DNA of 23,157 nucleotides from a virus. Location of the stretch: positions 1 to 23,157 of IMG/VR virus record IMGVR_UViG_3300037070_001665. One strand, written 5' to 3'. The position numbers and the translations under genes are program-made. Below the pieces are notes generated by a model, which did no database searches, had not been told where the DNA came from, and worked only from the letters and a program-made list of their open reading frames with translations. Below, piece after piece: positions 5,049 through 23,157 of this stretch; position 1 is the first letter of the stretch, and each line of letters starts with the position of its first letter.

Positions 5049-6995
5049 TCACCTGGCCCCCTCGTTGCGTTGCGCTCGCTTCACCGCGCTCATCACGGTC
5101 GCAGCAAGCTGATCCTGTGTGCGCTTGTCTACCGTGCCTGATGGCGCATTCACCCCGACGCTGATGTTGAATACATTGCCAGCACTGCCTGCTGTGACGG
5201 GTGCGATGTGCATTGGCTGATTGCCGCTGAAGATAAGCTCCGGCCCACGCTCACCAGCCACGCCAAACTTGCCTGGCCCCAAAGTTCCCCCCGACGCAAA
5301 GAATCCGCCGAATATGGTGCCGATGCCTTTGGCTATTCCACCGAACACGCCCTTCAGCCCGCCCGCACTCAAGCCGCCAAACAAGTCCTTGAGTGCGCTT
5401 TGAAGCATGTCAGTCAGACCGCGAACGACAGGAGTAATGAAAGACTCGCGCAGTGCTTTCGTGAACTCGATGGCGAAGGTATCAACGACGCCAATGGCGA
5501 GGCCCGCGAATGCCGCGCCCACCGTCTTTTGCGCTGTCAGGATGCTCACGAGCATGTCATCGAAGATGGCTGAGAATTGCTCATCGAGCCGCGCCTGTTC
5601 TTCTGTTCGAACAGTGCTCGGATGTGGTGGAAGCCCGGAAGCCGACAGACCTGGAATGATCTGACCTGGCCGTGCTTGCTGGAACGGCGAGCCGGACACT
5701 GCGAGCGGTACGCCTTCGGTGATGTTTGCAACTTGATTGCCTAATATTGTCAGGTTGCGTGCAATCTCACGCGCGTCCACTTCTGCCAGTGCGCGTGCCA
5801 TATCAGCCGCATCGTCTGCCTCGCGTTCCAGTCGCTCGAGCGCGGGGCGCAATAATGCAATGGGATCGAATGCACGCCCTAGTGGTAGCCGCGACTCAGC
5901 CGCCCTTGCTGCACGACCAGCCCGAGCGCCACCACCGCCTCCTCCCCTGCCACCAGTAACGAATCCTGCATTTGGCGGCCCTGCAACCTCATCCGCTCCC
6001 GCCAACGGTGCCAGCAGCCCCACAGGATTGACAGCGACCTTGCCTAAGCCCAGCAACAGCTGCAGATATGTTGATTTACTTATGAGACTGTCAACCTTTT
6101 GCAGTCCCGCAAACGTAAGTCCCAAGCTCGTCGATATGCCATCAAGCGTGTTAGCGACTGTATCTCCCGCTGACGTGCCCGCAAGATTCTGCTTGAATAC
6201 AGTCCACTGGTTATCAAGATGGTTGATCTTCGCGTCGAGTCGCCCCGCCGCGTCGATGGCCCTCTCTGTTGCGATCACACCCGACTCTTCAAGTTCCTTC
6301 CTTGAGCCCTGCAGGACCGTGGTCAGATTCTCTGCTGATCGCACAAGCTGGCCCACACTACGCCCAAATACCTCATTGGTCGCAGCGGCGCCCTCGGTGG
6401 TTGATCTGTACTCCTTAAGGTTGCTTATCGCCTTGAGGAATGCATCGCCGGTATCCTTACCCGCCTCGACTGCATTAATGCCCAGCACGTTCAGTGCTTT
6501 CGCCGCATCGCTTGCCGGATCATTGATGGCTGATTGAATTACATTCTCAAACGTGCGGAATGATCGCTCTGCAAAGTCTGCGCTTTCGCCTGATAGCCGT
6601 GCCGCTGCTGAGAGCCGCTGCACCTGATCGATGCTCAAGCCCGTGCTCTCAGCCACATCGAGCATTGAGTCTGAGACTGCCACGCCCTCAAGCGTCAGCT
6701 TCACAAGTGCCGAACCGAGTGCTGCAATTCCGGCAACAGCCGCCACAGCCGCGCCGCCAACCACACCAAAGCTCCCCGTCAACGATTCGAGCTGGCCACT
6801 CAGGTTTGAAACTTCGCCGCCAACCCGACCGACAGGCCCGCCAAGCCCCTGCAATGCTGAACCGAATCGCTGCGCCTGCTTCTCCGAACGCTGCATCGAA
6901 GAGTCAACGTTCTGTAGTGCGCGTGTGGCCTGCTTCTCGCCAGCCACAACACCTGACGAATCAAGCGCAAGATGTACTAAAGCAATGTCAGCCAT
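5049..6995 (-). CDS. Tail tape measure protein
   Basis: A 648-residue protein, the longest in the tail module apart from the tip protein, lying between the tail chaperones and the distal tail protein. It shows the expected make-up: Ala/Gln/Ser-rich helical N terminus, hydrophobic helices (about residues 74-103 and a second near 'VGAAFAGLAIGVV'), a glycine-rich linker (GGRGGGGGGARAGRAARAAE, mid-protein) and a C-terminal block FASGGTLGPGKFGVAGERGP, a common tape-measure ending. By the usual rule of about 0.15 nm per residue the tail would be near 100 nm. The start ATG shares one base with the upstream stop (TAATG). Confidence 0.92.
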   Translation of the reverse strand: MADIALVHLALDSSGVVAGEKQATRALQNVDSSMQRSEKQAQRFGSALQGLGGPVGRVGGEVSNLSGQLESLTGSFGVVGGAAVAAVAGIAALGSALVKLTLEGVAVSDSMLDVAESTGLSIDQVQRLSAAARLSGESADFAERSFRTFENVIQSAINDPASDAAKALNVLGINAVEAGKDTGDAFLKAISNLKEYRSTTEGAAATNEVFGRSVGQLVRSAENLTTVLQGSRKELEESGVIATERAIDAAGRLDAKINHLDNQWTVFKQNLAGTSAGDTVANTLDGISTSLGLTFAGLQKVDSLISKSTYLQLLLGLGKVAVNPVGLLAPLAGADEVAGPPNAGFVTGGRGGGGGGARAGRAARAAESRLPLGRAFDPIALLRPALERLEREADDAADMARALAEVDAREIARNLTILGNQVANITEGVPLAVSGSPFQQARPGQIIPGLSASGLPPHPSTVRTEEQARLDEQFSAIFDDMLVSILTAQKTVGAAFAGLAIGVVDTFAIEFTKALRESFITPVVRGLTDMLQSALKDLFGGLSAGGLKGVFGGIAKGIGTIFGGFFASGGTLGPGKFGVAGERGPELIFSGNQPMHIAPVTAGSAGNVFNISVGVNAPSGTVDKRTQDQLAATVMSAVKRAQRNEGAR

Positions 6996-11468: not shown

Positions 11469-12716
11469 CTATATTCCCGTTACGAGGCAGAAGGCGGTCG
11501 GTCGAATCACTGCAAAGGCTGCGCGAATCTCCGCGACTATGCTGCGCTGATTCTTGATGAAGTCATCGTTCTGATAACCCACCTTGATGGTCAGCCCCTT
11601 GCGTTCTGCAAGCAGTGAATAGTTGGCGAAATCACCCACGATTCCGGTGCCTTCGGTAAGTCCCGCATCGAGCACAACTGGCAGACCCCAGATGCGATCC
11701 GGGCCCATCTCTGACGGGTTGCCCCAGATGTAGATGCCATCAGTGGTGCGAAGCAGCTTCACATCCTGCCAGTCATTGGGATGCGATACGTATGCGCTTG
11801 GCATTGCCTGCCCAGTCACGCGCACCTTCGTCATCGCCTTATAGACTGCATCAGGCGTTGGATCTGTGGCTTTAGCCTGCGTCTGCACGCCCACGACGTT
11901 GACAATGCCCAGCAGGTTCGGCGTAATGCCGCTGCCCACGAGGATCTGCGTATTCAGCCGCTGGCGCACCATGAATCCGAGCCGGTTCTCGATGTACTCC
12001 TGCATTCCGGGCACATCCTCGAGCTGCTCATCCGTCACAGGAATCCATACGGCAATCTTGCGCACAGGGCTCGTGCGCTCTGTCAATGCGAGTGTTGCTT
12101 CAGGCTTGGCCGAACCTTCAGCAGTCTCCACAGCCGCATTCGTGAAGGTAGTTTCCTCCATGTAGATGAATGCATTCTGAGTGATCTGGATCGTCGGGAT
12201 GAGATCAGTGACTGCGGGCTGTGGCGTAGCGTATGGAACTACAACGGTCGAGCGCACTCGCTCAGGCACCCAGCCTGTCGTGGTCGTCAAGAGCGTCTTA
12301 AGGCGCATGTCAATGAACACGGCATCGGATTCCTGCCCTGTTCCGTGATTGCGCAGAAACTCCTGATATGACTTCGACTCTACGAACTGCTGGCCGATGC
12401 CCTTCTCGGATGGCTCAGGCGCATTGCCCTTTGGATTGCCGCCAAAGTTGGGGCGGTTCGGTTTCGAAAGATCGTCCTGAATGCTCTTGACGCTCGCGGC
12501 GATCTGCTCAGTCTCGAGCACCTCATCGCGCGCTTTGCCGATGGCGTTGATTTCCGCCATTCGCGCACGCACGTCATCAAGCTGCTCAGGCGTCAGGTCG
12601 TACGTAGTCTTGCCATCCTGCTCAACCTTGTGCGCATCGAAAATCTTCTGACATTCTTCTGACTTTGCCAGGCGCAGCTGCTCAAGCTCCGTGGCTGTTT
12701 TGCCCTTATGACTCAT
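11469..12716 (-). CDS. Major capsid protein, HK97 fold
   Basis: A 415-residue protein. Residues 1 to about 105 are charged and helical (LEQLRLAKSEECQKIFDAHK) and end in a Pro/Gly/Asn-rich linker: a scaffold-like delta domain probably removed by the protease encoded just upstream. The rest has HK97 capsid features: TGWVPERVRSTVVVPYATPQ, AEGSAKPEATLALTERTSPV, VTDEQLEDVPGMQEYIENRL, ILVGSGITPNLLGI and the C-terminal NQRSIVAEIRAAFAVIRPTA. The start ATG has AGGAG seven to eight bases upstream. No separate scaffold gene is visible, as expected when a delta domain is present. Confidence 0.95.
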   Translation of the reverse strand: MSHKGKTATELEQLRLAKSEECQKIFDAHKVEQDGKTTYDLTPEQLDDVRARMAEINAIGKARDEVLETEQIAASVKSIQDDLSKPNRPNFGGNPKGNAPEPSEKGIGQQFVESKSYQEFLRNHGTGQESDAVFIDMRLKTLLTTTTGWVPERVRSTVVVPYATPQPAVTDLIPTIQITQNAFIYMEETTFTNAAVETAEGSAKPEATLALTERTSPVRKIAVWIPVTDEQLEDVPGMQEYIENRLGFMVRQRLNTQILVGSGITPNLLGIVNVVGVQTQAKATDPTPDAVYKAMTKVRVTGQAMPSAYVSHPNDWQDVKLLRTTDGIYIWGNPSEMGPDRIWGLPVVLDAGLTEGTGIVGDFANYSLLAERKGLTIKVGYQNDDFIKNQRSIVAEIRAAFAVIRPTAFCLVTGI

Positions 12717-12725
12717 TGCAAACTC

Positions 12726-13460
12726 CTATTTGTTCACTACAAGTGTTTTTAGAAACTCTGCATAAACTGCGCGGGCTTCAGCATCGCTCGCCTTTTCGGG
12801 CGGTCTGATGAGCTGCCTGAGTTTGCGAGTCTCAACCGCACAAATCTGCAAGGCATCATCAAAAGCAATGAACCTGTCCTGATTCGGCAGTGAGATGTCA
12901 CGCCCTTTGGCTGCGCACAGTTCGTAGAGCGACTTACTGCGAGTAGCAAACCGAGTCACGCAATCAAGAGCGGTTTCGGCTTGGTTGGCGTACGTGCTAG
13001 GGACGTCCGATTTTATGGTGAGAAGTTCAGTGGCCGGGTTCATCCCCACGAGGACTGGCGACCACTCATAAAGCTCCAACTCATCAAGCTGCCGTATGTC
13101 TTTGGATTCACCGTCGAATGAATCCTTAACCACACGATAACCGATGGAAAACTCATCAATGATACCGAATTTGATGTCACTAAACGCTTCGCGGCCACGC
13201 TGCGTGTCGGGATTGAATACAGCGTCAATGACTAGCCCCTTGTCTGTCTCGTGCGCTTCGAGCGTCTTGGCTACCGGTGTTTGCCAGTCGTGAGCCCACA
13301 CGCCTTTCGGCATGCGCCTCGCCAGACTCGCCTTGAATGCACCCGGCATTACCCTTTCGTTAGCGTGATCAACGACGTTGAACACGCTCACAAGGGCGGT
13401 AATCCTATACTCGTCTGCCGCCTGCACACTGGCTGTGAATTGTTTGCGTTCAAGCTCCAT
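12726..13460 (-). CDS. Prohead protease, HK97 (U35/S78) family
   Basis: A 244-residue protein. The catalytic histidine lies in WAHDWQTPVAKT (His57) and the serine in IIDEFSIGYRV (Ser105), with VFNPDTQRGREAF between them, the normal order of this herpesvirus-assemblin-like family. It should cleave the capsid delta domain during head maturation. Residues 150-244 form an extra C-terminal region of unknown role (many members end near 180-200). The start codon lies in the right arm of a perfect 8-bp hairpin and lacks a clear Shine-Dalgarno; a promoter-like -10 lies only about 16 bases upstream. Confidence 0.92.
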   Translation of the reverse strand: MELERKQFTASVQAADEYRITALVSVFNVVDHANERVMPGAFKASLARRMPKGVWAHDWQTPVAKTLEAHETDKGLVIDAVFNPDTQRGREAFSDIKFGIIDEFSIGYRVVKDSFDGESKDIRQLDELELYEWSPVLVGMNPATELLTIKSDVPSTYANQAETALDCVTRFATRSKSLYELCAAKGRDISLPNQDRFIAFDDALQICAVETRKLRQLIRPPEKASDAEARAVYAEFLKTLVVNK

Positions 13461-13475
13461 CTGAAATGATGGAGC
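13454..13475. promoter_or_regulatory. Perfect 8-bp inverted repeat covering the prohead protease start codon
   Basis: The arms GCTCCATC (13454-13461) and GATGGAGC (13468-13475) are perfect complements around a six-base loop. On the minus-strand message the right half contains the ATG of the protease gene. It could be a DNA operator next to the promoter-like element upstream, or an RNA hairpin limiting initiation. Confidence 0.6.
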
Positions 13476-13525
13476 CTTATAGCATGGGAGGTGCCCTTAC
13501 TTTTGGGCGGTACTTTTGGCGGGAG
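13476..13525 (-). promoter_or_regulatory. Candidate late promoter before the capsid maturation genes
   Basis: On the minus strand an extended -10 (TGCTATAAG; core at 13481-13476) is preceded by two direct copies of a CCGCC(C)AAAAGTA unit (within 13525-13497). There is no TTGACA at -35, so an activator bound to the repeats is plausible. The same arrangement (CCGCCAAAGTAAG, CACC, CATGCnATA) recurs at 21452-21486. It is 16 bases from the protease start codon. Inferred from shared sequence and location. Confidence 0.55.
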
Positions 13526-13528
13526 TTT

Positions 13529-14140
13529 CTAGCTGTCTGCTGTGGCGGATTGGCGGTACTCAAACTCGCATTGATCATTCGCGCGGCAGGTGCGCTCGCC
13601 TACCGGCACAAGTGTCCCGATTGGTTGCCAGCCCTTGCCTGCCTCCTGAAAGCATTCCTCACAATGATCCGCGTCAGGCTCGAGGAAGCTGCGCTCTTCC
13701 TGCATTCCGGCGTACTTCTCGCGCTGGCCGATTGATTCTGTATAGCTGATCCAGCCTGACTGCCCATACTGTGCCGAACGTCCCGGCGATGGCGTATCCT
13801 GCCCCGATTCGACGCCCAAGAGAAACCGGCTGAGGAAGCCGTATTGCTGCACGAGCAGTGAGCCGAGCTTCCCGCGCTGCCTTGCGCCCATCTGCTCTTT
13901 GCCACCAAAGGCAAGCTGAGACATGGCGCTGTGCGTTGCCTTGACGCCTTCACGCATTGCAACGGCCCAATCCTCGAAGGTGATCTTCCCGTCTACGTAT
14001 GTTTGGGTTAAGTCTTCAAGCGCATCGGCACTCTTCGAAACGATTCTCAGCCCGATCTTGCGCACTTCGGCAGGTGTGAGCGGTTTGCCGTTAGGTTTGA
14101 TGTACTGCCGCCGTCTTGGGTCCCACTGGTAGTCAGGCAC
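13529..14140 (-). CDS. Minor head / head morphogenesis protein (MuF-like)
   Basis: A 203-residue protein starting with GTG (VPDYQWDPRRRQYI) five bases after the portal stop. The C-terminal block has DADHCEECFQEAGKGWQPIG and, a few residues on, GERTCRANDQCEFEYR, the Cys-rich end typical of Mu gpF-type minor head proteins encoded after the portal; the paired cysteines may bind a metal. The N-terminal two thirds are helical. Such proteins are internal head components, often ejected with DNA. It is short for the family. Its stop lies at the edge of the candidate promoter region. Confidence 0.65.
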   Translation of the reverse strand: MPDYQWDPRRRQYIKPNGKPLTPAEVRKIGLRIVSKSADALEDLTQTYVDGKITFEDWAVAMREGVKATHSAMSQLAFGGKEQMGARQRGKLGSLLVQQYGFLSRFLLGVESGQDTPSPGRSAQYGQSGWISYTESIGQREKYAGMQEERSFLEPDADHCEECFQEAGKGWQPIGTLVPVGERTCRANDQCEFEYRQSATADS

Positions 14141-14144
14141 ATTG

Positions 14145-15614
14145 TCACTCGTGCTCGATTGTCACTTTGGGTTTTGCCTTGAGCATCTTCGCGGCTTCAT
14201 CCTCACCGAGTGCCAGCAGCCACGGAATTGCAGCATCCAGCACTGCGTCATTGCCGCTCGCGTTCGGATCAGCAGCTTTGAATGTGAGCACCTTGCCGCC
14301 CTGCTCACCATCCCTCATTGCGTCATCACCCACAGGTGGTCCTCCGCTCTCGATTGGCGCATATATCTCGTCCTCCGCATCGAACTCGTAGCCTGCAAGC
14401 TCACGCACTTCGCTGCGCTTCAGCCAGCCGCTCTTATAGCCAACTGAAAGCCGCGCATAGAGCGCGTCCTGATCTTCGCTGAGTGCCCGTATCGCAGTCA
14501 GATCAAACCTAAATTGATGGCGCTCAGTATCATCCTCAAAGTCACCGAGGAACTGCGTCGTGAGTTCTTCCTCGATGTAACGGTACAGCGGGACGAGATA
14601 TGATTCCGTTGCATATTCTACCAGTTGACGCGCGTTAGAGTAAGTCGCTTTGTCTAGTCCTGCGCCATAGCCAAGCACAATCGCTGGTATGCCAATGACT
14701 GCCGAGAGGCGCTCTTCCGGGAGCCGTCGCAGCTGCGCCAGGTTGAGATCATTCGGGCTGAAGCCCACCTTCTCGACATTCACCGCCGCCCCGCTCACCC
14801 ACGCCTTGCCACGCTGATCACCTTGCGTCTGCCGCAGGTACTTCTCGCGCACATCGTTCGGATCAAACTGGTACGCATTCACGTTCTCTTTGAGGCTGAT
14901 CACAACAGGCGGCACTGCGCCATTCTTCATCAGCAGCGCACTGTAGTTCGCAATCTCATTGTCTGTGTAGACTTCGCGCATCACGCTTGCAACGGGCGAG
15001 AGGCCCATGCGCGTGTTCATCGGGTCAATACCATCCCGGAAGTGGATCACATCTTCCTGTTCGAAGGTCTGCGTTGCCCCGTCCACCTTGTACTCGTAGC
15101 CTGTGATGAACTCTGAGCCGCTCTGCGGCCACAATGGGCGCATCATATGCGGTGGCACATACCAAAGCTCAGTCACGCGACTGCCGCCATTGCGCACTTT
15201 GAGCACATACGGGTTGCCGCTCACGATCCACGAGTATGCGAATGCCTTGAGCAGTGTTGTGCCTGAGTAATAGAGATTGGGTCTGCGCAAGAGCTTGGCT
15301 GCCGGATGGCCTGGAATGACCTGCTCCATCCCATCTTCGTCAAGCTCAACCACGTTGAGTGGCGCTTCAGGTAGCACACGTCCGAGCCAGTTGACTGCTG
15401 CGATTACGAGCGACGAGCCGCCAACGCTCCCAACCTCAGATGCGTAGTCGATGTTCTTGCCGCTGTAGCCGTAGCCGTTCCACGCATCACTCAGCACGTT
15501 CCACACAATGCCGGAACTGCCAGCAGTGCCGCCCTGACTTGGGAAGCGCATGGCGTCCTTCAAGCTGGCGAGTGCTTGGATCGAACGTCTGATGATGCCC
15601 GTTTCTTTCGTCAT
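14145..15614 (-). CDS. Portal protein, HK97 family
   Basis: A 489-residue protein with many recognisable portal segments: EVGSVGGSSLVIAAVNWLGR (about residues 60-79), RPNLYYSGTTLLKAFAYSWI, GNPYVLKVRN, EQEDVIHFRDGIDP, GLSPVASVMREV, EERLSAVIGIPAIVLGYGAG and RQLVEYATESYLVPLYRYIE. It forms the dodecameric ring through which DNA enters the head. Start ATG at 15614 lacks a clear Shine-Dalgarno and lies at the end of a tandem 10-bp repeat. It follows the HNH cassette and the small helix-turn-helix gene. Confidence 0.95.
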   Translation of the reverse strand: MTKETGIIRRSIQALASLKDAMRFPSQGGTAGSSGIVWNVLSDAWNGYGYSGKNIDYASEVGSVGGSSLVIAAVNWLGRVLPEAPLNVVELDEDGMEQVIPGHPAAKLLRRPNLYYSGTTLLKAFAYSWIVSGNPYVLKVRNGGSRVTELWYVPPHMMRPLWPQSGSEFITGYEYKVDGATQTFEQEDVIHFRDGIDPMNTRMGLSPVASVMREVYTDNEIANYSALLMKNGAVPPVVISLKENVNAYQFDPNDVREKYLRQTQGDQRGKAWVSGAAVNVEKVGFSPNDLNLAQLRRLPEERLSAVIGIPAIVLGYGAGLDKATYSNARQLVEYATESYLVPLYRYIEEELTTQFLGDFEDDTERHQFRFDLTAIRALSEDQDALYARLSVGYKSGWLKRSEVRELAGYEFDAEDEIYAPIESGGPPVGDDAMRDGEQGGKVLTFKAADPNASGNDAVLDAAIPWLLALGEDEAAKMLKAKPKVTIEHE

Positions 15615-15655
15615 TCTACGTCACTCAACGTCACTTGCCGTCACCTGCTGTCACC
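15611..15655. repeat. Five tandem units with 10-bp period ending at the portal start codon
   Basis: On the plus strand TCA[TC][TC] recurs at 15611, 15621, 15631, 15641 and 15651; on the minus strand it reads GTGAC, GTGAC, GTGAC, GTGAC, ATGAC, with the last unit being the portal ATG. Ten-base spacing is about one helical turn, so all units face the same side of DNA. It could be an operator array or an initiation-region repeat; there is no usual ribosome binding site here. Confidence 0.65.
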
Positions 15656-15693
15656 GCTAAGTGGTTTAACGCCACAAACTTAGCCCGCTTTTT
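15656..15693 (+). terminator. Hairpin with T-run upstream of the HNH promoter
   Basis: GCTAAGTGG (15656-15664) can pair with CCAC (15672-15675) and TTAGC (15680-15684) with a four-base bulge, followed by CCGC and five T residues on the plus strand. It would stop plus-strand (antisense to portal) transcription before the HNH promoter. The stem is imperfect. Alternatively this stretch is a remnant of the 3' end of the helix-turn-helix gene. Confidence 0.35.
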
Positions 15694-15696
15694 CTG

Positions 15697-15725
15697 TTGA
15701 CAGCCTCCCTCTCTGTGGGTATTCT
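15697..15725 (+). promoter_or_regulatory. Sigma-70-type promoter for the HNH gene
   Basis: TTGACA (15697-15702) matches the -35 consensus exactly and is followed, after a 17-base spacer, by TATTCT (15720-15725), four of six to TATAAT. The HNH start codon is about 42 bases downstream with AAGGAGGG between. It points against the rest of the late operon. Confidence 0.7.
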
Positions 15726-15766
15726 TCGCGGCACAATAATCACATTTGAGAAGGAGGGAGTTTCCC

Positions 15767-16174
15767 ATGATGGAATCAATCGCGAATTTCAAAGCAAAAG
15801 CACTTGGGTTTTCTGGATACCAGGACTATCTCAAGAACAGTTTCTACTGGCACAATTTCAAGAAACGGTTTCTCACAGACACCTGCGCCGGCTGTCTCGG
15901 TCGTCGGTATAAAGGCCCTTGCAAATGGATGGAAATGCATCATCTCACCTACGACCGCTTAGGCAACGAATTGCCCGAAGATTGCGCCACCTTGTGTACG
16001 TTCTGCCACGAGCAAGCAACTCGCGCGGAATGGAACGACGAATGCCCGCTCGAAGATACTGTGCTGTTTTTGCGCAAGAAACATCTGGGGTTTCAATTCC
16101 AAATGGCCTTCAACTTCGATGATCAATGTAATCAACCCGATCGAATGCCCGATGAACTGAAGAAGGCCGCTTGA
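15767..16174 (+). CDS. HNH endonuclease, inverted relative to the late operon
   Basis: A 135-residue protein. ATG at 15767 is chosen because AAGGAGG lies eight to ten bases upstream; an in-frame TTG at 15746 lies before that site and is rejected. The zinc ribbon cysteines (DTCAGCLG and LCTFCHEQA) surround the HNH core: EMHHLTYDRLGNELPEDCATLC. The N terminus (MMESIANFKAKALGFSGYQD) is helical. HNH proteins beside the terminase may help packaging-site cleavage (as HK97 gp74) or be selfish homing nucleases. Its own promoter, terminator and opposite direction favour a mobile cassette. It separates the terminase-side genes from the portal gene. Confidence 0.88.
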   Translation: MMESIANFKAKALGFSGYQDYLKNSFYWHNFKKRFLTDTCAGCLGRRYKGPCKWMEMHHLTYDRLGNELPEDCATLCTFCHEQATRAEWNDECPLEDTVLFLRKKHLGFQFQMAFNFDDQCNQPDRMPDELKKAA

Positions 16175-16203
16175 TAGCGTTCATGTTCGATTCGTTTCGC
16201 CTT

Positions 16204-16248
16204 GCGGCTGATCTGTCAATCATCTGATTCCCAAATCAGCCGCTTTTT
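16204..16248 (+). terminator. Rho-independent terminator after the HNH gene
   Basis: GCGGCTGAT (16204-16212) and ATCAGCCGC (16235-16243) pair perfectly over nine bases and are followed by five T residues on the plus strand. A competing inner hairpin CTGATT-CCCA-AATCAG (16224-16239) uses part of the same right arm. The right arm lies in the last codons of the convergent helix-turn-helix gene. Confidence 0.8.
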
Positions 16249-16518
16249 AAGTTCTACCTCAACATCACCGGACTTCTCTCGTATGACAACAAAGTGCTGT
16301 GTGGCCAGCGTTAGTATCCAGCGATATACTTCTCTTACCTCTCGCTCCACAAAACGAACGCGACCGTCTACTCTATGTTCAATACTTCTCCAGCACGCCA
16401 CCTGCCGAAGTGTATTGACAGGTATGCCAGTGCGATCTTCCACTCCTTTTCGTGAAATGATGTAATCGTCAGCACGAATCTCCAACGCCGGAAATTTCAC
16501 TGCGTGATAATTGCTCAT
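16216..16518 (-). CDS. Small helix-turn-helix DNA-binding protein (excisionase/MerR-like)
   Basis: A 100-residue protein. ATG at 16518 overlaps the large terminase stop (ATGA), preferred to an in-frame start 42 bases upstream. Residues about 20-65 (YIISRKGVEDRTGIPVNTLR, then IEHRVDGRVRFVEREVREVY) fit the HTH_17 pattern: a first helix with 'GVEDRTGIPVNTLR' as helix-turn-helix, a wing with the arginines, then a final helix. It could regulate late genes or bind DNA in packaging. The C terminus (KKRLIWESDD) is part of the HNH cassette boundary and may be a replaced end. Confidence 0.65.
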   Translation of the reverse strand: MSNYHAVKFPALEIRADDYIISRKGVEDRTGIPVNTLRQVACWRSIEHRVDGRVRFVEREVREVYRWILTLATQHFVVIREKSGDVEVELKKRLIWESDD

Positions 16519-17750
16519 CCCGACACCACCCAACTGCGCACACCCACAACAGCACGCCACGCAAGCGCACGCGCTATCACCGTGTCATCATGCAAGCCCT
16601 CTGGTGCCGCATAGCTCACACGCTGCGTATTCGCTGCCACCTTCGATTCGAATGCGTGCAGCTCTGCCGTGGCTGCTGGCACATCAAGCCATCTGCACTC
16701 ACTGCGCTCAAACGCAAGCATCAAAGACTGGATCAATGGCGGTTTCGATGCAGCCGTAGTCGTGAACGGAATCACCGGCAATCCCTCACGCTGCAATGCC
16801 TCGATATTTGGTGAGCCGATCGAGTTCTCTTCCGCTTCGATGTGCTGCACACCCCAGCGCCTGGCAAGCGCGTCCAAGCGCGCTCGCTGAAATGACCACT
16901 GAATCTTGTTGAAGCGATCAAGCGCCACCTCGAGGCGGCATTCTGTACACACCACACTTAAGCACGTGAAATCGCCCTTCATGGCCCAATCAACACCCAT
17001 CACCAGCCGATGGCCGCTGTGATCCGCAGGGCTCGCACCTGGCAGCGCAGTCAGGTTTGCGGCAATGTTTCGAAACACGCTCCCCTCACCCTCGAGGAAC
17101 TCTGCAAGTATCTCTTCGCGGTATGCCTCATCTGTCAGATCGCCCGCAATCTCATCCAGCGCCTCCCTGCTCAAGTGCGGATTATCAAGCGACGTGAAGT
17201 GCCACGCCTGCCAGCGCCCTGACTCATCGCTCTTTGCTTTCTGATAGAGATCGTGAAACCAGTTCCTTCTGCGCGGTGTCGAGATGAACCACGCATCGCC
17301 GTTGTTGTCGAGAAGCATTGGCGCTCCCACCTTGCCCCACGCATCAGGTGCCAGGTACGCGCATTCATCGAGCACGAGAAAGTCCGCATGGTCGCCGCGC
17401 AGCGTATCGGCATCGCTTGCAGTCTTCACCTTGATCCGCCCGCCGTTATTGGGCATCAGCATGATCCTGCGTTGTTCGTTCTTTTCGATCACGCCAAACT
17501 CCGTGACTTCATAAAGCCACGCCTTCACTTTGTCCCAGAACGCATCTGCCTGATCCTGCGTAGTTGATGCGAGGAGCACGCGCCTGCCCTCGAGCATCTT
17601 CTTGACCGAGACGCGAGCTGCAAGTGTCGTTTTGCCGGCGCGACGCCCGGCATTAATCACGACTCTCTTCGCCTTCGTCTTCGCTATCATCGCCTGCTTC
17701 AAGTGCATTGATGGCAGGTGTATCGTCAGTTCTTTGGCCGTCGCTATCAT
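16515..17750 (-). CDS. terL: Terminase large subunit
   Basis: A 411-residue packaging motor. Numbering from the ATG: Walker A NAGRRAGKTT (33-42), Walker B DFLVLDE (123-129), coupling motif WFISTP (154-159). The nuclease domain has Asp254 in GVDWAMKGDFT, Glu307 in HIEAEEN and the C-terminal pair in LHDDTVIA. ATPase translocates DNA into the head and the RNase H-like nuclease cuts the concatemer. ATG at 17750 (or TTG at 17753) has AGGA upstream but overlaps the small subunit by 98 bases; ATG at 17708 is an alternative that keeps the adenine-binding LKQAMI motif. Confidence 0.95.
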   Translation of the reverse strand: MIATAKELTIHLPSMHLKQAMIAKTKAKRVVINAGRRAGKTTLAARVSVKKMLEGRRVLLASTTQDQADAFWDKVKAWLYEVTEFGVIEKNEQRRIMLMPNNGGRIKVKTASDADTLRGDHADFLVLDECAYLAPDAWGKVGAPMLLDNNGDAWFISTPRRRNWFHDLYQKAKSDESGRWQAWHFTSLDNPHLSREALDEIAGDLTDEAYREEILAEFLEGEGSVFRNIAANLTALPGASPADHSGHRLVMGVDWAMKGDFTCLSVVCTECRLEVALDRFNKIQWSFQRARLDALARRWGVQHIEAEENSIGSPNIEALQREGLPVIPFTTTAASKPPLIQSLMLAFERSECRWLDVPAATAELHAFESKVAANTQRVSYAAPEGLHDDTVIARALAWRAVVGVRSWVVSG

Positions 17751-17979
17751 CAACTATCCTGATGAGCACTCCACCTGAATGCTCGTGATATTCCTTCGGC
17801 TTCCCGAACGTGTAAGCTAAGAGAATCTTGGTGGCTTCCAAGTCCTCCGCCTTCGCTCGCCGCACGAGCATCTGAATCACTTCCATTCGGTCATCTTCCG
17901 TGAATGCGGTGCGCAAGAGCCACGACAACCCCTCACGGTAGGCTTTGCTCGGTCGCCCTTTTGGTAAAGCGTTAGCCAT
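17653..17979 (-). CDS. Terminase small subunit-like protein
   Basis: A 108-residue protein directly before the large terminase. The basic N terminus (LPKGRPSKAYREGLSWLLRT) could bind DNA. A helical pair follows, VIQMLVRRAKAEDLEATKIL then AYTFGKPKE, a 'LV.RAKAGD..A.K.LL.Y.FGKP' pattern shared by small terminase-like proteins. The last 30 residues are acidic (Asp/Glu-rich, ending in SEDEGEESRD) and are coded in the overlap with the large subunit. Small subunits recognise the packaging start and control the large subunit. Assigned by order and this motif. Confidence 0.75.
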   Translation of the reverse strand: MANALPKGRPSKAYREGLSWLLRTAFTEDDRMEVIQMLVRRAKAEDLEATKILLAYTFGKPKEYHEHSGGVLIRIVDDSDGQRTDDTPAINALEAGDDSEDEGEESRD

Positions 17980-17980
17980 A

Positions 17981-18943
17981 CTATGCAGCTCGCCTCACTA
18001 CCATTTGCCTTGCGTGACGCGCGATAGGCGTGGCGATTGTTTGAAGACGCGGTTCGTGCGCTTCAACTGTCACGCTCAGTGCGGGCGCGATGAACTGCCC
18101 TTCCGTCACGGCAGGCGCGTACAAGCCGACACTGACCGCAAGACCGGGTATTTCAAATGCTGCTTCACGAATGATTGTGGGTGCGTGCAGGCTGACACTT
18201 GTGGATAAGACGATCGAATCAAGCACGCGGCAGCATCGCTCGAAGAACGGCACAACCTCTGCTGGTGTCATCCCATGCTCAACGCCATGCTCACCGTGAA
18301 TTGTGAGCACTGCATACTCAAGCGCCACGCCGCTCACGTATGCCGAGAATGCGTCAGCGTTCGTGGATTTAAGGACGAGAGTATCTTCAGGTGATGCAGT
18401 AAATCGAAATCGCTTCCCGGCGTATTCACTCACCGGGCGAAGAATTGGATCATGCCCTGCCGTTTGTGTTGCGTAGCTTCCGCCGCCTGGAATGTTGTAA
18501 GCCGTATTGATCGAACTATCAGCCCAATCGAGGTCGTTGTACATCGAGCCAAGATTGCATACCGGCAAGCCCAGGAATGCGCCCTTGACGCCTGCAATCT
18601 CACCGCGTGCAATCGAAAGCAGCCCCGTAAGCCCACCCATTGACCCGCCCCAAAAGCCAACAAACGTGATGCTGTAATTCGCGCGCATATACGCGATGAG
18701 ATTTGCGTAATCGATAAGCGCGGCTTCATTGCCCCAGTTATCGCCATGCGCGCTCGTGCCTGCAAACAAATAGCCAAGCGGAAGCATTGCATTGATGACA
18801 TCTGAATAGCCGAGCATCCCCTGCTCGTCATCGCCCATGCCGTGCGACCACACGATGAGGTAGTAAGTGCGCGCTGCCGAGAAGTCATCCGGCAATACGA
18901 TGAGCACTTCCTGACCACCGACAATCGTGTTTATCTGCTGCAT
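17981..18943 (-). CDS. Esterase-like alpha/beta hydrolase with C-terminal repeats
   Basis: A 320-residue protein. The nucleophile elbow is FWGGSMGG (Ser101). An oxyanion-type SHGMGDDE lies at 33-40, a likely acid at Asp187 (SPEDTLV), and histidines in HGEHGVEHG (216-224). The fold resembles PHB-depolymerase/esterase-type hydrolases; substrate unknown, possibly an O-acetylated or polymeric cell-surface glycan. The C terminus has three short repeats (LSTSVSLHAPTI at 246, LAVSVGLYAPAV at 268, LSVTVEAHEPRL at 289) shared with the LamG protein upstream. No signal peptide, which fits a virion-borne tail enzyme. Start ATG has only a weak GAAGA upstream. Confidence 0.8.
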   Translation of the reverse strand: MQQINTIVGGQEVLIVLPDDFSAARTYYLIVWSHGMGDDEQGMLGYSDVINAMLPLGYLFAGTSAHGDNWGNEAALIDYANLIAYMRANYSITFVGFWGGSMGGLTGLLSIARGEIAGVKGAFLGLPVCNLGSMYNDLDWADSSINTAYNIPGGGSYATQTAGHDPILRPVSEYAGKRFRFTASPEDTLVLKSTNADAFSAYVSGVALEYAVLTIHGEHGVEHGMTPAEVVPFFERCCRVLDSIVLSTSVSLHAPTIIREAAFEIPGLAVSVGLYAPAVTEGQFIAPALSVTVEAHEPRLQTIATPIARHARQMVVRRAA

Positions 18944-18950
18944 TCTTCGA

Positions 18951-18956
18951 TATAAT
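18951..18956 (+). promoter_or_regulatory. Perfect TATAAT -10 box next to a small plus-strand gene
   Basis: TATAAT ends eight bases before the ATG at 18965, so transcription would start about two bases before the start codon and give an almost leaderless message. No good -35 is seen 16-18 bases upstream. Confidence 0.4.
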
Positions 18957-18964
18957 TGCGATTG

Positions 18965-19120
18965 ATGAAGAACTGGTACATTGACAAGCGTGGCAACCCA
19001 CGCCAGGTATCGCGCGAATATCCGCTTCCATGGCGTGAATACAGCACCGCTGAGAAGGTTGACGCTATTGCAAGTGGCGCGGCATTTATTATCCTGGTCA
19101 TTCTTCTCAGTTTTCTTTAG
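18965..19120 (+). CDS. Small plus-strand membrane protein (51 residues)
   Basis: ATG at 18965 to TAG at 19118-19120, occupying almost all of the 173-base gap between the LamG and esterase genes. The N-terminal 33 residues are hydrophilic (MKNWYIDKRGNPRQVSREYP) and the C-terminal 16 form one membrane helix (AAFIILVILLSFL). There is no Shine-Dalgarno; a perfect TATAAT eight bases upstream suggests a leaderless message. Its stop overlaps the convergent stop of the LamG gene. It could be a superinfection exclusion or lysis-related peptide; nothing proves function. A minus-strand reading of 56 codons exists in the same gap and is less convincing. Confidence 0.45.
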   Translation: MKNWYIDKRGNPRQVSREYPLPWREYSTAEKVDAIASGAAFIILVILLSFL

Positions 19121-20529
19121 CTCGTAGCGTCTGTAACTCCCTGCTGCATTACGATGACACCCTTCTCACACGTATAGACGGCCCCTGCCTGCGAAACGAT
19201 CTGCACATCGTAGTGACAGGGAATCAAGGGCGTTAGAGTGGCCGTTTCTGCGCCCGTCAGATCGAAATAGAGTGCAATCGAACCGCCTGTGGTTATAGCG
19301 TCTGTAATCTGACCGGCTATGCCTTCAGATGCAGTGACCTGCTTTTGAAGTGCCGCCTCAGCATCAGTGTCATCCTTCGCGTGTCGCTTGATCGTGAGAT
19401 ATGCCTTGTTGACGATGATGCCGCCAGGGAGTTCCGTGTATGTGCGTGATATGCGCAGATCATCGCCACCCACATAGTTGACAATGCGCACCTTGAAATT
19501 GAACGGCTCAAGTGTCTGCTCATCTTCCTGAACTACTTCTTCCTCGATGTTGACTGACGCAGGCGTCACCGCTGTGACCGCAACCGTAAGCGCCGAAACC
19601 TGAAACCCCAAATCTGCAAGTATTGCGGGAGCGGGTGCGGCAGTCGTAATTGACTGCGCTGGAAGTGCTATGCCCACCGGAGCGAACATCTCCGGCGTGT
19701 GGAGCGTGACCGATGTAGTGAGTAGAGGCGGCTCGACTATTACCGGCGGCGTGCTCGTAACGAAGAATTGAAAATCATCATCGCGGTCAAGCTGCTGATA
19801 GATGTCATATGGATTCCGGTAGATTGCTTCGAGTTCGCCAAGCTCAAGTGCGTAATTGTAGATGCGCACATCGCGCATTGAACATGAAATCGCGACTCCG
19901 GCAGTGCCGCCAAACGTCGGCCCACCCAGCGCGAGAGTGTCCTTCGCCACAACGGGCGTCAGTGCATCAGTGTTGTGCGCACCGACAATGCCGTTGCAAT
20001 ACGCCCACCTGTCAGAATTTGAGACAAAGACACCCGCGCAAAATACCCAGTCACTGAATGGTACAGCCAGACTTGCCATCGCTGCGCCGAACACGGTGGT
20101 TTCAACCTGCACTGCGTTCAGCATCGTTGCTTCCAGTTGTAAATAAAAAGCATCCCACACCGACGCATGTGCCCGCCCTATCCATACATTTATGCCCTGC
20201 GTAAAATTCGCGATGCGCCGCATCCAGCACGTGATAGTCAACGGCACCGTTGTCACTTTCGGTACAAGGTAGGGCACGCCTCCGGCTATCACCTGTACTG
20301 CGCCCCAGTTGCCGCGATACTCGTCACCAAACCACCAGCCGCCGGGAAGCGCCACACTAGTCGCAGGTCGAAACCGCCTGTCAGCGGCAATGCCGTGAAG
20401 CGAGTCAATACGCCCGAGCGGTATCCATTGCACCAGGCCGCGTTTCTGAAGTGACAGCGGGTTGAGTACCGGCGCCCACGGCGCAGCGCGCTTATCTACT
20501 GAGCGATAATCCGTTACTGACGGAATCAT
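19117..20529 (-). CDS. LamG-domain tail adhesin
   Basis: A 470-residue protein. Residues about 90-240 form a concanavalin/LamG jelly roll: LTITCWMRR, WIGRA, AFYLQLE, FSDWVFCAGVFVSNSDRWAY, LALGG and the typical ending MRDVRIYNYALELGELEAIY. Residues 265-326 hold three beta repeats (TTSVTLHTPE, AQSITTAAPAPAI, ALTVAVTAVTPAS) like those of the esterase next door. After an acidic linker (EEEVVQEDEQ), residues 340-470 form an Ig-like beta domain (SRTYTELPGGIIVNKAYLTI). A carbohydrate-binding virion surface protein is likely. ATG overlaps the previous stop (ATGA). Confidence 0.75.
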   Translation of the reverse strand: MIPSVTDYRSVDKRAAPWAPVLNPLSLQKRGLVQWIPLGRIDSLHGIAADRRFRPATSVALPGGWWFGDEYRGNWGAVQVIAGGVPYLVPKVTTVPLTITCWMRRIANFTQGINVWIGRAHASVWDAFYLQLEATMLNAVQVETTVFGAAMASLAVPFSDWVFCAGVFVSNSDRWAYCNGIVGAHNTDALTPVVAKDTLALGGPTFGGTAGVAISCSMRDVRIYNYALELGELEAIYRNPYDIYQQLDRDDDFQFFVTSTPPVIVEPPLLTTSVTLHTPEMFAPVGIALPAQSITTAAPAPAILADLGFQVSALTVAVTAVTPASVNIEEEVVQEDEQTLEPFNFKVRIVNYVGGDDLRISRTYTELPGGIIVNKAYLTIKRHAKDDTDAEAALQKQVTASEGIAGQITDAITTGGSIALYFDLTGAETATLTPLIPCHYDVQIVSQAGAVYTCEKGVIVMQQGVTDATS

Positions 20530-20918
20530 ATTTGAAACGTAAGTCGCTTAGTGCCGGATGTGGTGAAGGTGAGACGATCCACCTCAAGCGCGGTCGTATC
20601 GTCGTCAAAATCAGTGCCATCTGTTGAGCGTTTGAAGAGCAGCGTTACCGGCCCAGCCGCGCTCGCGGGCGCAGTCACCACAAATTCGACCGTGCCGCCT
20701 TCCCACTTATCAGTGGAATTGTCCTGTGCTGTGCCGTCAACGTATGCCGGATGCGCAAGCGTACCCGTATTCTCGAGCACCGTGGCTTCGCCTGCCTCGA
20801 ATGTGATCGAGCCATCGCTCGCACGTTTCCAGCGGCGCATATGGACAATGACGCCACTAATGGCAATGGTCTGCCCGCAGGCATTCTGCGCTGCAAATTT
20901 GTAGTTGCGCGGTAGCAT
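20526..20918 (-). CDS. Small beta-rich structural protein, unknown function
   Basis: A 130-residue protein. ATG at 20918 (MLPRNYKFAAQNACGQT) has AAGGAGG seven bases upstream, so an in-frame start 48 bases upstream is rejected. It alternates short strands and Thr/Gly turns (ASDGSITFEAGEA, VTLLFKRSTDGTDFDDDTT), fitting a beta sandwich. Located between a tail-associated beta protein and the LamG adhesin, it is probably a virion attachment component. No enzyme motif. Confidence 0.6.
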   Translation of the reverse strand: MLPRNYKFAAQNACGQTIAISGVIVHMRRWKRASDGSITFEAGEATVLENTGTLAHPAYVDGTAQDNSTDKWEGGTVEFVVTAPASAAGPVTLLFKRSTDGTDFDDDTTALEVDRLTFTTSGTKRLTFQI

Positions 20919-20932
20919 CGAGAAACCTCCTT

Positions 20933-21328
20933 CTAGGTAAGCGTGATAATTCCCGAGGCGCTCCACTGCGCGACCACGTTCGTGCCAACCGGCGTCAACG
21001 GAAAGCCGGCGACGCCTGAATCCCAGTAAGAGACAAGCGGCGAGGTCCCTTCCGTGCCGGTATCAATCCAGAGCACAAGCGCCTCACTCACATCGCCCGA
21101 TACACTCGCGAATGTTGTATCAGCCGCATCGAGCGTGCCCGCGGTTGTGGTGATGCTCGCAAGCGTGGATGTTGCAACGCGAGAGATTGCCGGAACGCTC
21201 GAGATGAACTCATGCGCGGCGCTATAGGTATAATCCGCGCTATCGACTATCGACGCCTTGAGCGTACCAAGCGCGAGTAACTGATCGAGCATCGCCTTCT
21301 TTGCTGTTGCTTGAACTGCGTTTGCCAT
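20933..21328 (-). CDS. Phage structural beta protein of the tail/adsorption module
   Basis: A 131-residue protein with AGGAGG seven to eight bases before the ATG. Conserved elements of a common phage structural family are visible: LLALGTLKASIVDSADYTYS, then a mid Thr-rich stretch, ALVLWIDTGTEGTSPLVSYW and a final QWSASGIITL. The family pattern 'DTG...TSPL(V/I)(S/A)Y.D.G' recurs near tail fibre and head decoration genes of many siphoviruses. Role is unproven. It opens the host-contact gene group after the small membrane protein. Confidence 0.6.
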   Translation of the reverse strand: MANAVQATAKKAMLDQLLALGTLKASIVDSADYTYSAAHEFISSVPAISRVATSTLASITTTAGTLDAADTTFASVSGDVSEALVLWIDTGTEGTSPLVSYWDSGVAGFPLTPVGTNVVAQWSASGIITLT

Positions 21329-21341
21329 TGCAATAGTCCTC

Positions 21342-21440
21342 CTAGACGTGTTTCAGGAGAATGAGGAGGGCAAGGATCACAACGAGCACCACGAGTAGTG
21401 CCACCGCCCACAAGATCACGCGATCCCTGTTCCAGTTCAT
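21342..21440 (-). CDS. Very small membrane protein (32 residues)
   Basis: ATG at 21440 to TAG at 21342. Eight polar residues (MNWNRDRV) precede a membrane helix of about 20 residues (ILWAVALLVVLVVILALLIL) and end KHV. Its stop codon overlaps the ribosome binding site of the next gene, tight packing that supports a real gene. No Shine-Dalgarno precedes it; a promoter-like element lies about 12 bases upstream. Single-helix peptides of this size can be holin-like, spanin-like or host membrane modulators. It is the only holin-like candidate near the lysozyme, about 1 kb away. Confidence 0.55.
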   Translation of the reverse strand: MNWNRDRVILWAVALLVVLVVILALLILLKHV

Positions 21441-21451
21441 TTCAAGGCGGG

Positions 21452-21486
21452 AGTATCGCATGCAGGGTGTGCTTACTTTGGCGGGA
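21452..21486 (-). promoter_or_regulatory. Candidate late promoter before the adsorption genes
   Basis: On the minus strand CTCCCGCCAAAGTAAG (21486-21471) is followed by CACC and an extended -10-like TGCGATACT. This is the same layout as at 13476-13525, with identical CCGCC, AAAGTAAG, CACC and CATGCnATA blocks. A second CTCCCGCC (21453-21446) follows. It lies between the regulator terminator and the small membrane protein, where a new transcript would be expected. Confidence 0.5.
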
Positions 21487-21496
21487 GCAAAGAAAC

Positions 21497-21528
21497 GGCG
21501 TCCGAGCTACTCACTGAGCACGGACGCC
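21497..21528 (-). terminator. Rho-independent terminator after the regulator gene
   Basis: GGCGTCCG (21497-21504) and CGGACGCC (21521-21528) pair perfectly over eight bases with a 16-base loop. On the minus strand the stem is followed by GTTTCTTTG. It separates the regulator gene from the downstream promoter element. Confidence 0.72.
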
Positions 21529-21570: not shown

Positions 21571-21948
21571 TTACTTGCGAATGATCGTGTAGGTGCGCAG
21601 CTCCGGGCCCTTCGTCACACTCTGCCGTCGCTCGCGATGCTCACGCACAATGCCACGCGCCACCAGCCCCTCGAGCAGGTCAATCACCTTCACCTTTTCC
21701 ATTCGCGTGTACATCTGGATGTCGAGCACAGTCGAGTGATGCTCTTCGACAGCTTCGAAGATGAGTTCTTCGTCAGCCGTGAGCATCTTGAATGCCTGGG
21801 GATATTCGCTCTTTGCTTTGCGGATCGTAGCTACTATCGCCTGATGAAGCCGCCCCGACATACTCACACCGAGCAGCTGACATGATCTGCGGTACTCATA
21901 TTTGAGCCGCTTGTCAGGCACTCTCAAGAAAACGCGGGGTTCTGGCAT
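21571..21948 (-). CDS. Ribbon-helix-helix plus winged-helix transcription regulator
   Basis: A 125-residue protein. Residues 1-45 fit an Arc/MetJ-type ribbon-helix-helix: strand PRVFLRV, then KRLKYEYRRSCQLLGVSMSG and RLHQAIVATI. Residues 56-125 look like a winged helix: LTADEELIFEAVEEHHSTVL, VIDLLEGLVARGIVREHRER and a final strand RTYTIIRK. Such proteins act as dimeric DNA-binding regulators. A GTAC-based palindrome lies 15-25 bases before the ATG, suggesting self-control. No strong Shine-Dalgarno. A terminator follows, so it forms the end of the lysis-side transcript. Confidence 0.65.
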   Translation of the reverse strand: MPEPRVFLRVPDKRLKYEYRRSCQLLGVSMSGRLHQAIVATIRKAKSEYPQAFKMLTADEELIFEAVEEHHSTVLDIQMYTRMEKVKVIDLLEGLVARGIVREHRERRQSVTKGPELRTYTIIRK

Positions 21949-22496: not shown

Positions 22497-23068
22497 ACTT
22501 CCTCGAGAAACAATGCGCGTTCCTTCTCGCGGCGATTCGCGAGCCCCTCACTCACCACCTTCTCACCATCCACCGTGATCTTGTTCCACACGAGGAACTG
22601 ATCGGCGACGACGGTTCTCGCTTCGCCTTCGTTCAGCAGCCTCAGCAGTGTGCTATCCGCGAACGCATACACGCCAATGTTGAACGCGAGCGAGCACATT
22701 GCGTTGTACTCGTTCTGGTTCACCAGCACTTTCACATTCGCGTCCATACACTCCTCAGTCTCAAGCAAGTCACCTTCGAGCAGCATATCGGATTCGTTCT
22801 GCGTGATCGTGCGATTGTACGGATCGTCAGGCCCGTCGAGAAGATGACCAACTCCTACGGTGAGGTAGCCTGCGGAATCGTAGTACGGGTCGAGTTCGCA
22901 CCCCTCGCATTCGGTGATGAATGCTATGCCGGCAGAGTCAACGCAGTCCGGTTCATCACTTGGCGGGAGCGCACTTGAAGTTTTGTCGTCAATGCGGCGA
23001 AGGAGCTTTTCGATGCGTCTCAATCGGCGGATGATATTGCGCTCGCAATGTGGTTTTGGTGTGCTCAC
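22493..23068 (-). CDS. Endolysin, GH24 T4-type lysozyme
   Basis: A 191-residue protein starting with GTG that overlaps the previous stop (GTGA). The catalytic triad of T4-type lysozymes is present with exact spacing: Glu55, Asp64, Thr70 (E-x8-D-x5-T) in ECEGCELDPYYDSAGYLTVG. Further family blocks are EYNAMCSLAFNIGVYAFADS and GLANRREKERALF. It cuts the glycan strands of peptidoglycan at lysis. The first 47 residues are an extra extension: basic and helical (RNIIRRLRRIEKLLRRIDDK) with no clear signal or anchor, so it probably needs a holin. No obvious holin gene is next to it in the window. Confidence 0.93.
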   Translation of the reverse strand: MSTPKPHCERNIIRRLRRIEKLLRRIDDKTSSALPPSDEPDCVDSAGIAFITECEGCELDPYYDSAGYLTVGVGHLLDGPDDPYNRTITQNESDMLLEGDLLETEECMDANVKVLVNQNEYNAMCSLAFNIGVYAFADSTLLRLLNEGEARTVVADQFLVWNKITVDGEKVVSEGLANRREKERALFLEEV

Positions 23069-23157
23069 TCAGCCTCCTTCTCCATCGCAGCGAGTTCCTC
23101 ACGAATACAATCTCCGTATAGAACAATCTGCCCGACTGTAGCCGATTCTCCCGCCGC
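23065..23157 (-). CDS. 3' end of an unknown gene upstream of the lysozyme
   Basis: Only the last 30 codons are present, ending TGA and overlapping the lysozyme GTG. The visible part is hydrophilic (GQIVLYGDCIREELAAMEKE). The tight overlap shows it belongs to the same operon. It cannot be classified; a holin C terminus is possible because such tails are often charged, but nothing visible proves it. Confidence 0.5.
   Translation of the reverse strand, partial: AAGESATVGQIVLYGDCIREELAAMEKEAE

Follow-up and report, generated by a model that had tools for sequence, protein, structure and literature searches.

Two distant intergenic sites share a putative activator-dependent promoter in the late region of a tailed phage

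The 23,157-base virus record analyzed here (the window) carries on its minus strand the late region of a tailed phage, with genes for lysozyme, p168, p125, a small membrane protein, a LamG-domain protein, terminase, portal, protease, capsid and tail proteins. Two intergenic sites in this region, approximately 8 kb apart, display the same promoter-like motif, which raises the question of what this motif is and what might read it. The analyses described below suggested that the two sites are very probably a pair of promoters, and probably copies of a phage-specific, activator-dependent late promoter for which p125 would be the likeliest activator. From sequence alone, this defines a late regulon with two promoters and a candidate for its regulator.

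Both sites carry AAGTAAGnnCACCnnnCATGCnATA in ungapped register on the minus strand (13502-13478 and 21478-21454), as the initial annotation had stated. Site 1 comprises an AAAGTA box (13498..13503), which in the predicted promoter spans -34 to -29, and an extended -10 element, TGC-TATAAG (13476..13484), which matches TATAAT in five of six bases; its predicted transcript start lies near 13469. At site 2, the AAAGTA box (21474..21479) is followed by TGC-GATACT (21452..21460, 4/6 to TATAAT), with a transcript start predicted near 21445. The first start codons lie 15 nt (13460, site 1) and 11 nt (21440, site 2) past the -10 hexamers, and the predicted leaders are 5-9 bases long. A good Shine-Dalgarno sequence is lacking in front of both start codons, in agreement with the earlier claim, while several of the neighboring genes have one.

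The tandem unit noted earlier at site 1 is real, with two copies of AAGTA at a distance of 13 bp (13515 and 13502). The upstream unit, AAGTACC (13509..13515, minus strand, 13 bp from the box), is a possible second binding unit; AGTACC is found at the same distance upstream in all nine site-1 copies collected from this phage group and is absent at site 2, where the tail of a terminator lies instead. As a separate observation, the upstream half of site 1 (L010:3020-3050, GAGTTTGAGTACCaCCAA in L010; window 13529-13590) is similar to the 3' terminus of the gene before it (GAGTTTGAGTACCGCCAA); a short duplication of that gene's end may have supplied some of the site-1 promoter.

The mutual similarity of the two sites was rejected as stand-alone evidence, given that 141 same-strand pairs of 25-mers with at least 19 matching positions were counted in the window, compared to 73 in a shuffled window. 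No further copies of AAGTAAGnnCACCnnnCATGCnATA were detected in the window with up to 3 mismatches allowed, and the expectation of zero copies applies to a pattern that was derived from the sites themselves. The promoter reading is based instead on conservation in relatives.

The location of the sites is informative as well. Site 2 is found between a terminator-ended lysozyme-p168-p125 operon and the downstream block encoding terminase and portal, and the first gene after it encodes a 32-residue membrane protein (21342..21440, minus strand), which is retained there in most relatives. Directly upstream of site 2 is a Rho-independent terminator (21489..21528, minus strand; GGCGTCCG...CGGACGCC followed by a T-rich tract), with a hairpin of -21 kcal/mol (z -3.5). 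Three different sequences, in the window and in two diverged relatives, form this same hairpin, which escaped a terminator pattern search because of its longer loop. Site 1 has no terminator and precedes the protease-capsid block, consisting of the prohead protease gene (12726..13460, minus strand; PF04586, 2.4e-24), whose start MELERKQF is common to the window and its relatives, and the capsid gene that follows it (11469-12716, PF05065). In one relative, the 32-residue membrane protein after site 2 is replaced by a short gene (L104:2790-2990) whose lipoprotein-like product has a lipobox and ends in a proline-rich tail; it is a candidate Rz1-like spanin, and a broken remnant of it seems to be retained in other relatives.

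Relatives were collected through two proteins. A search with the protease returned 80 contigs. In the closest of these, the region in front of the protease gene, located via the gene start and not via the motif, contains the motif at the corresponding position. A search with p125 returned eight contigs, and in each of them the motif follows shortly after p125. Altogether, the motif was present before the prohead protease gene in nine distinct phage sequences and where the structural operon begins in eight, for a total of 17 sites, which are not independent as they come from a small group of close relatives. Invariant across the 17 were the AAAGTA box (-34 to -29), C at -17, TG at -15/-14 and ATA at -11 to -9, the last preceded by T or G; A was found at -28 and at -23 in 16 of 17, and the remaining spacer and the upstream flank varied. 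The AAAGTA(AG) box and the extended -10, TGn(T/G)ATA, are exactly 13 bases apart in the relatives, and all 17 sites have TGn followed by TATAAG (5/6) or GATACT (4/6). When the two sites within one genome were compared, AAAGTAA agreed at 7/7 positions and TGnnATA at 5-6/7, with flanks agreeing at 9-22 of 60 positions upstream and 8-10 of 40 downstream. That one site arose recently as a duplicate of the other was rejected, the flanks being unrelated.

These comparisons redrew the boundaries of the initially proposed consensus, of which AAAGTA(AG) and the extended -10 were upheld and two other parts were not. The sequence CTCCCGCC precedes AAAGTA in only four of nine site-1 copies and, at site 2, only in the window, and CACC is kept only partly among relatives. 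Additional copies of CTCCCGCC exist where they had been reported, at 21446-21453 and in the lysozyme gene (22962-22969), and two on the plus strand had been overlooked (5996-6003 and 23148-23155). At the copy inside the lysozyme gene, the other elements are all missing. Just after the site-2 -10, CTCCCGCC is exact in six of eight relatives, with no counterpart at site 1.

The motif search in relatives that had been suggested as a check came out in favor of the proposal: the motif was found in the two intergenic regions homologous to those of the window, both preceding late genes, and at no other position of a 37.8-kb genome (the contig of relative L007). A weight matrix scored these two matches at 39.9 and 34.2 bits, with the next at 0.8 and the best score in 20 random genomes at 16.3, the matrix including the sites of this relative themselves. 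The motif is in this genome shared by two late units and absent elsewhere. Among 2.9 million viral contigs, the exact pattern was confined to this group and to six contigs of AT-rich phages, where it falls by chance within genes, in five cases the same gene. The spaced pattern was absent from 680 kb of distant relatives, and the motif from the 25 kb examined of MW202444, the closest catalogued capsid relative (49%). Outer relatives L141 (5072-5084), L014 and L015 have extended -10-like sequences upstream of the protease (CATGTGATAGG, TGGTAGAAG, TGGTATAAC) and lack the AAAGTA box. The collections searched contained no cultured member of this phage group, and the attempt to find a host via prophages gave a single distant, motif-free match to an Acidobacteria MAG (47%).

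As claimed initially, TTGACA is missing from the two window sites, where one or two of its six bases are present, and at most two are found at any of the 17 late sites, the conserved AAAGTA box occupying the place of the -35. Lack of TTGACA commonly marks promoters that depend on an activator, as with the T4 middle promoters (PMC6024815). The early region of the L007 relative, by comparison, has a perfect TTGACA-16-TATAAT promoter (L106:994-1021) with the palindrome TGTCTAGACA in its spacer and an integrase encoded nearby, which is likely a repressor-controlled early promoter of a temperate phage; CGTCTAG, related to TGTCTAGACA, was also observed downstream of it. The late sites differ from this perfect early promoter, and activator dependence of the pair is likely. 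Of the activator-dependent late promoter proposed at the outset, the shared motif without TTGACA upstream of late genes was borne out; activator dependence, late timing and transcript starts at the two sites are inferred.

Under the proposed mechanism, the extended -10, TGn(T/G)ATA, would be read by the host RNA polymerase carrying the main sigma factor. The AAAGTA(AG) box centered near -31 would replace the missing -35, and a phage activator would probably bind to this box. Site 2 would restart transcription right after the terminator and drive the structural region, including terminase and portal. Site 1 would add an extra promoter for protease and capsid, which are needed in large amounts.

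The pair could also consist of constitutive or host-regulated extended -10 promoters, with TGn(T/G)ATA and AAAGTA used without a phage activator and late timing arising from read-through or copy number. TGnTATAAG by itself makes a good extended -10, and the TGG/TGT-type -10-like sequences near the protease gene of L014, L015 and L141 occur without AAAGTA. However, AAAGTA is invariant at both sites and does not resemble TTGACA, which calls for some reader of the box; this explanation is unlikely in our estimation. Less credit is given to operators or other protein-binding sites (for packaging, partition or repression), or to conserved short ORFs starting from an ATG inside the motif. The RTG in the motif does open short frames (ATG CTA TAA at site 1 and ATG CGA TAC at site 2), but they are not the same at the two sites or among relatives and lack a Shine-Dalgarno, and a position after a terminator and before a structural operon is the place of a promoter; we consider such roles quite improbable.

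Two alternative sigma factors were weighed. A sigma-28-type promoter (TAAAGTTT-N11-GCCGATAA), with the sigma factor supplied by host or phage, would account for 9-11 of 16 consensus bases at a spacer that is always 12; yet that spacer should be 11, about 6% of shuffled sites score equally well, and 39 such positions occur in the window. CG at -13/-12 is the hallmark of sigma-28 promoters. At the sites studied here these two bases vary, while TG at -15/-14 is invariant, and a sigma-28 promoter is accordingly disfavored as very doubtful. A sigma-54 promoter (GGCAC-N5-TTGC), for which GG at -24 and GC at -12 are obligatory, has practically no probability, as the 8/10 bases with rightly spaced GG and GC at site 1 of the window, L005 and L007 are contradicted by the relatives, with GG and GC gone in L010-L013 and L104 and GG gone at site 2.

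Returning to a phage activator, attention was directed to p125, a protein of 125 residues encoded directly upstream of the terminator (21571..21948, minus strand). Its C-terminal 74 residues (52-125) were predicted by AlphaFold2 to form a winged helix (pLDDT 80.7), for which Foldseek returned MarR-type regulators as the best matches (TM up to 0.77), and Pfam gave weak matches to TrmB and MarR_2. The full-length model was unusable (pLDDT 48). A ribbon-helix-helix had been suspected by eye in the N-terminal 50 residues and was dropped, Pfam and PDB searches giving it no support; no recognized fold was found for the N-terminal half in the same searches. Among catalogued phages p125 has no match.

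All contigs with p125 also carry the motif. Additionally, four mosaic contigs (L095, L133, L134 and L137), two of which extend through protease and capsid, have a p168 that is 78-95% identical and, next to it, another head module (portal 39%); neither p125 nor the motif is present in them. This joint absence fits p125 acting on the motif, but exchange of the head module as a block would give rise to it as well. Taken together, p125 could well be the activator of the AAAGTA box, an assignment that we make tentatively and rate somewhat below even. If it is the activator, it would be a late regulator without a clear PHROGs or cultured-phage relative. With regard to the mosaic contigs themselves, their lysozyme and p168 genes, which are close to those of the window (up to 95%), are joined to a different terminase-portal-capsid module, and in L095 a p131-LamG module (80-99%) has been relocated downstream of the capsid gene.

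A hairpin was also identified over the protease start codon (GCTCCATC-ATTTCA-GATGGAGC; 13454..13475, minus strand; 8 bp, -14.1 kcal/mol, z -4.3), and the predicted site-1 transcript start falls at the end of its left arm. In the T4 gene e leader, late transcripts miss the left arm of a hairpin (PMC3014915), and the placement of the site-1 start resembles that arrangement. The case of site 1 differs in that masking of the start codon is not significant against shuffled leaders, about 6% of which behave likewise, and in that the hairpin is lost in L008. The motif-less L014 and L015 also mask their start codon, and, on account of these two relatives and the shuffled leaders, masking was demoted to a side hypothesis. 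A joint reading would have p125 found a new family of late activators (combining a ribbon-helix-helix-like N-terminal part with a winged helix and recognizing AAAGTA at -31) in combination with a translational switch at site 1. Read-through mRNA from site 2 would then hide the protease start codon in the hairpin, site-1 mRNA would miss the left arm and be translated from a leader of 7-9 bases, and head maturation would wait for the second promoter. We regard this combination as improbable.

The activator-dependent late promoter favored here can be compared to known phage systems. Like the T4 middle promoters with their MotA box, the sites have a phage box near -30 in place of a -35 and upstream of a sigma-70 -10, but the box here is AAAGTA(AG) and stands before late structural genes (PMC6024815). 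No relative of MotA or AsiA was found among the scanned proteins of the window, which is a fragment. The late promoters of P2, activated by Ogr, are likewise several, dispersed and of one consensus at structural operon starts; their sites are TGT-N12-ACA and the activator has the zinc motif CX2CX22CX4C (PMC3931495). Neither window site has an upstream TGT, and p125 contains a single cysteine and lacks this zinc motif, so that membership in the P2/Ogr class was rejected. In Mu, a single activator, C, serves dispersed late promoters with a poor -35 and binds upstream of or overlapping the -35 (PMC4461284), unlike the box at -31 described here; no match to the C or Mor families was found. The fixed-spacing consensus marks both late operon starts in fragmentary genomes. 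The value of these findings to specialists is moderate, since P2, Mu and T4 already offer examples of one activator serving late promoters at several places. On our best reading, the two sites would resemble the T4 middle, P2 late and Mu late promoters in logic and would apparently be unrelated to them in sequence.
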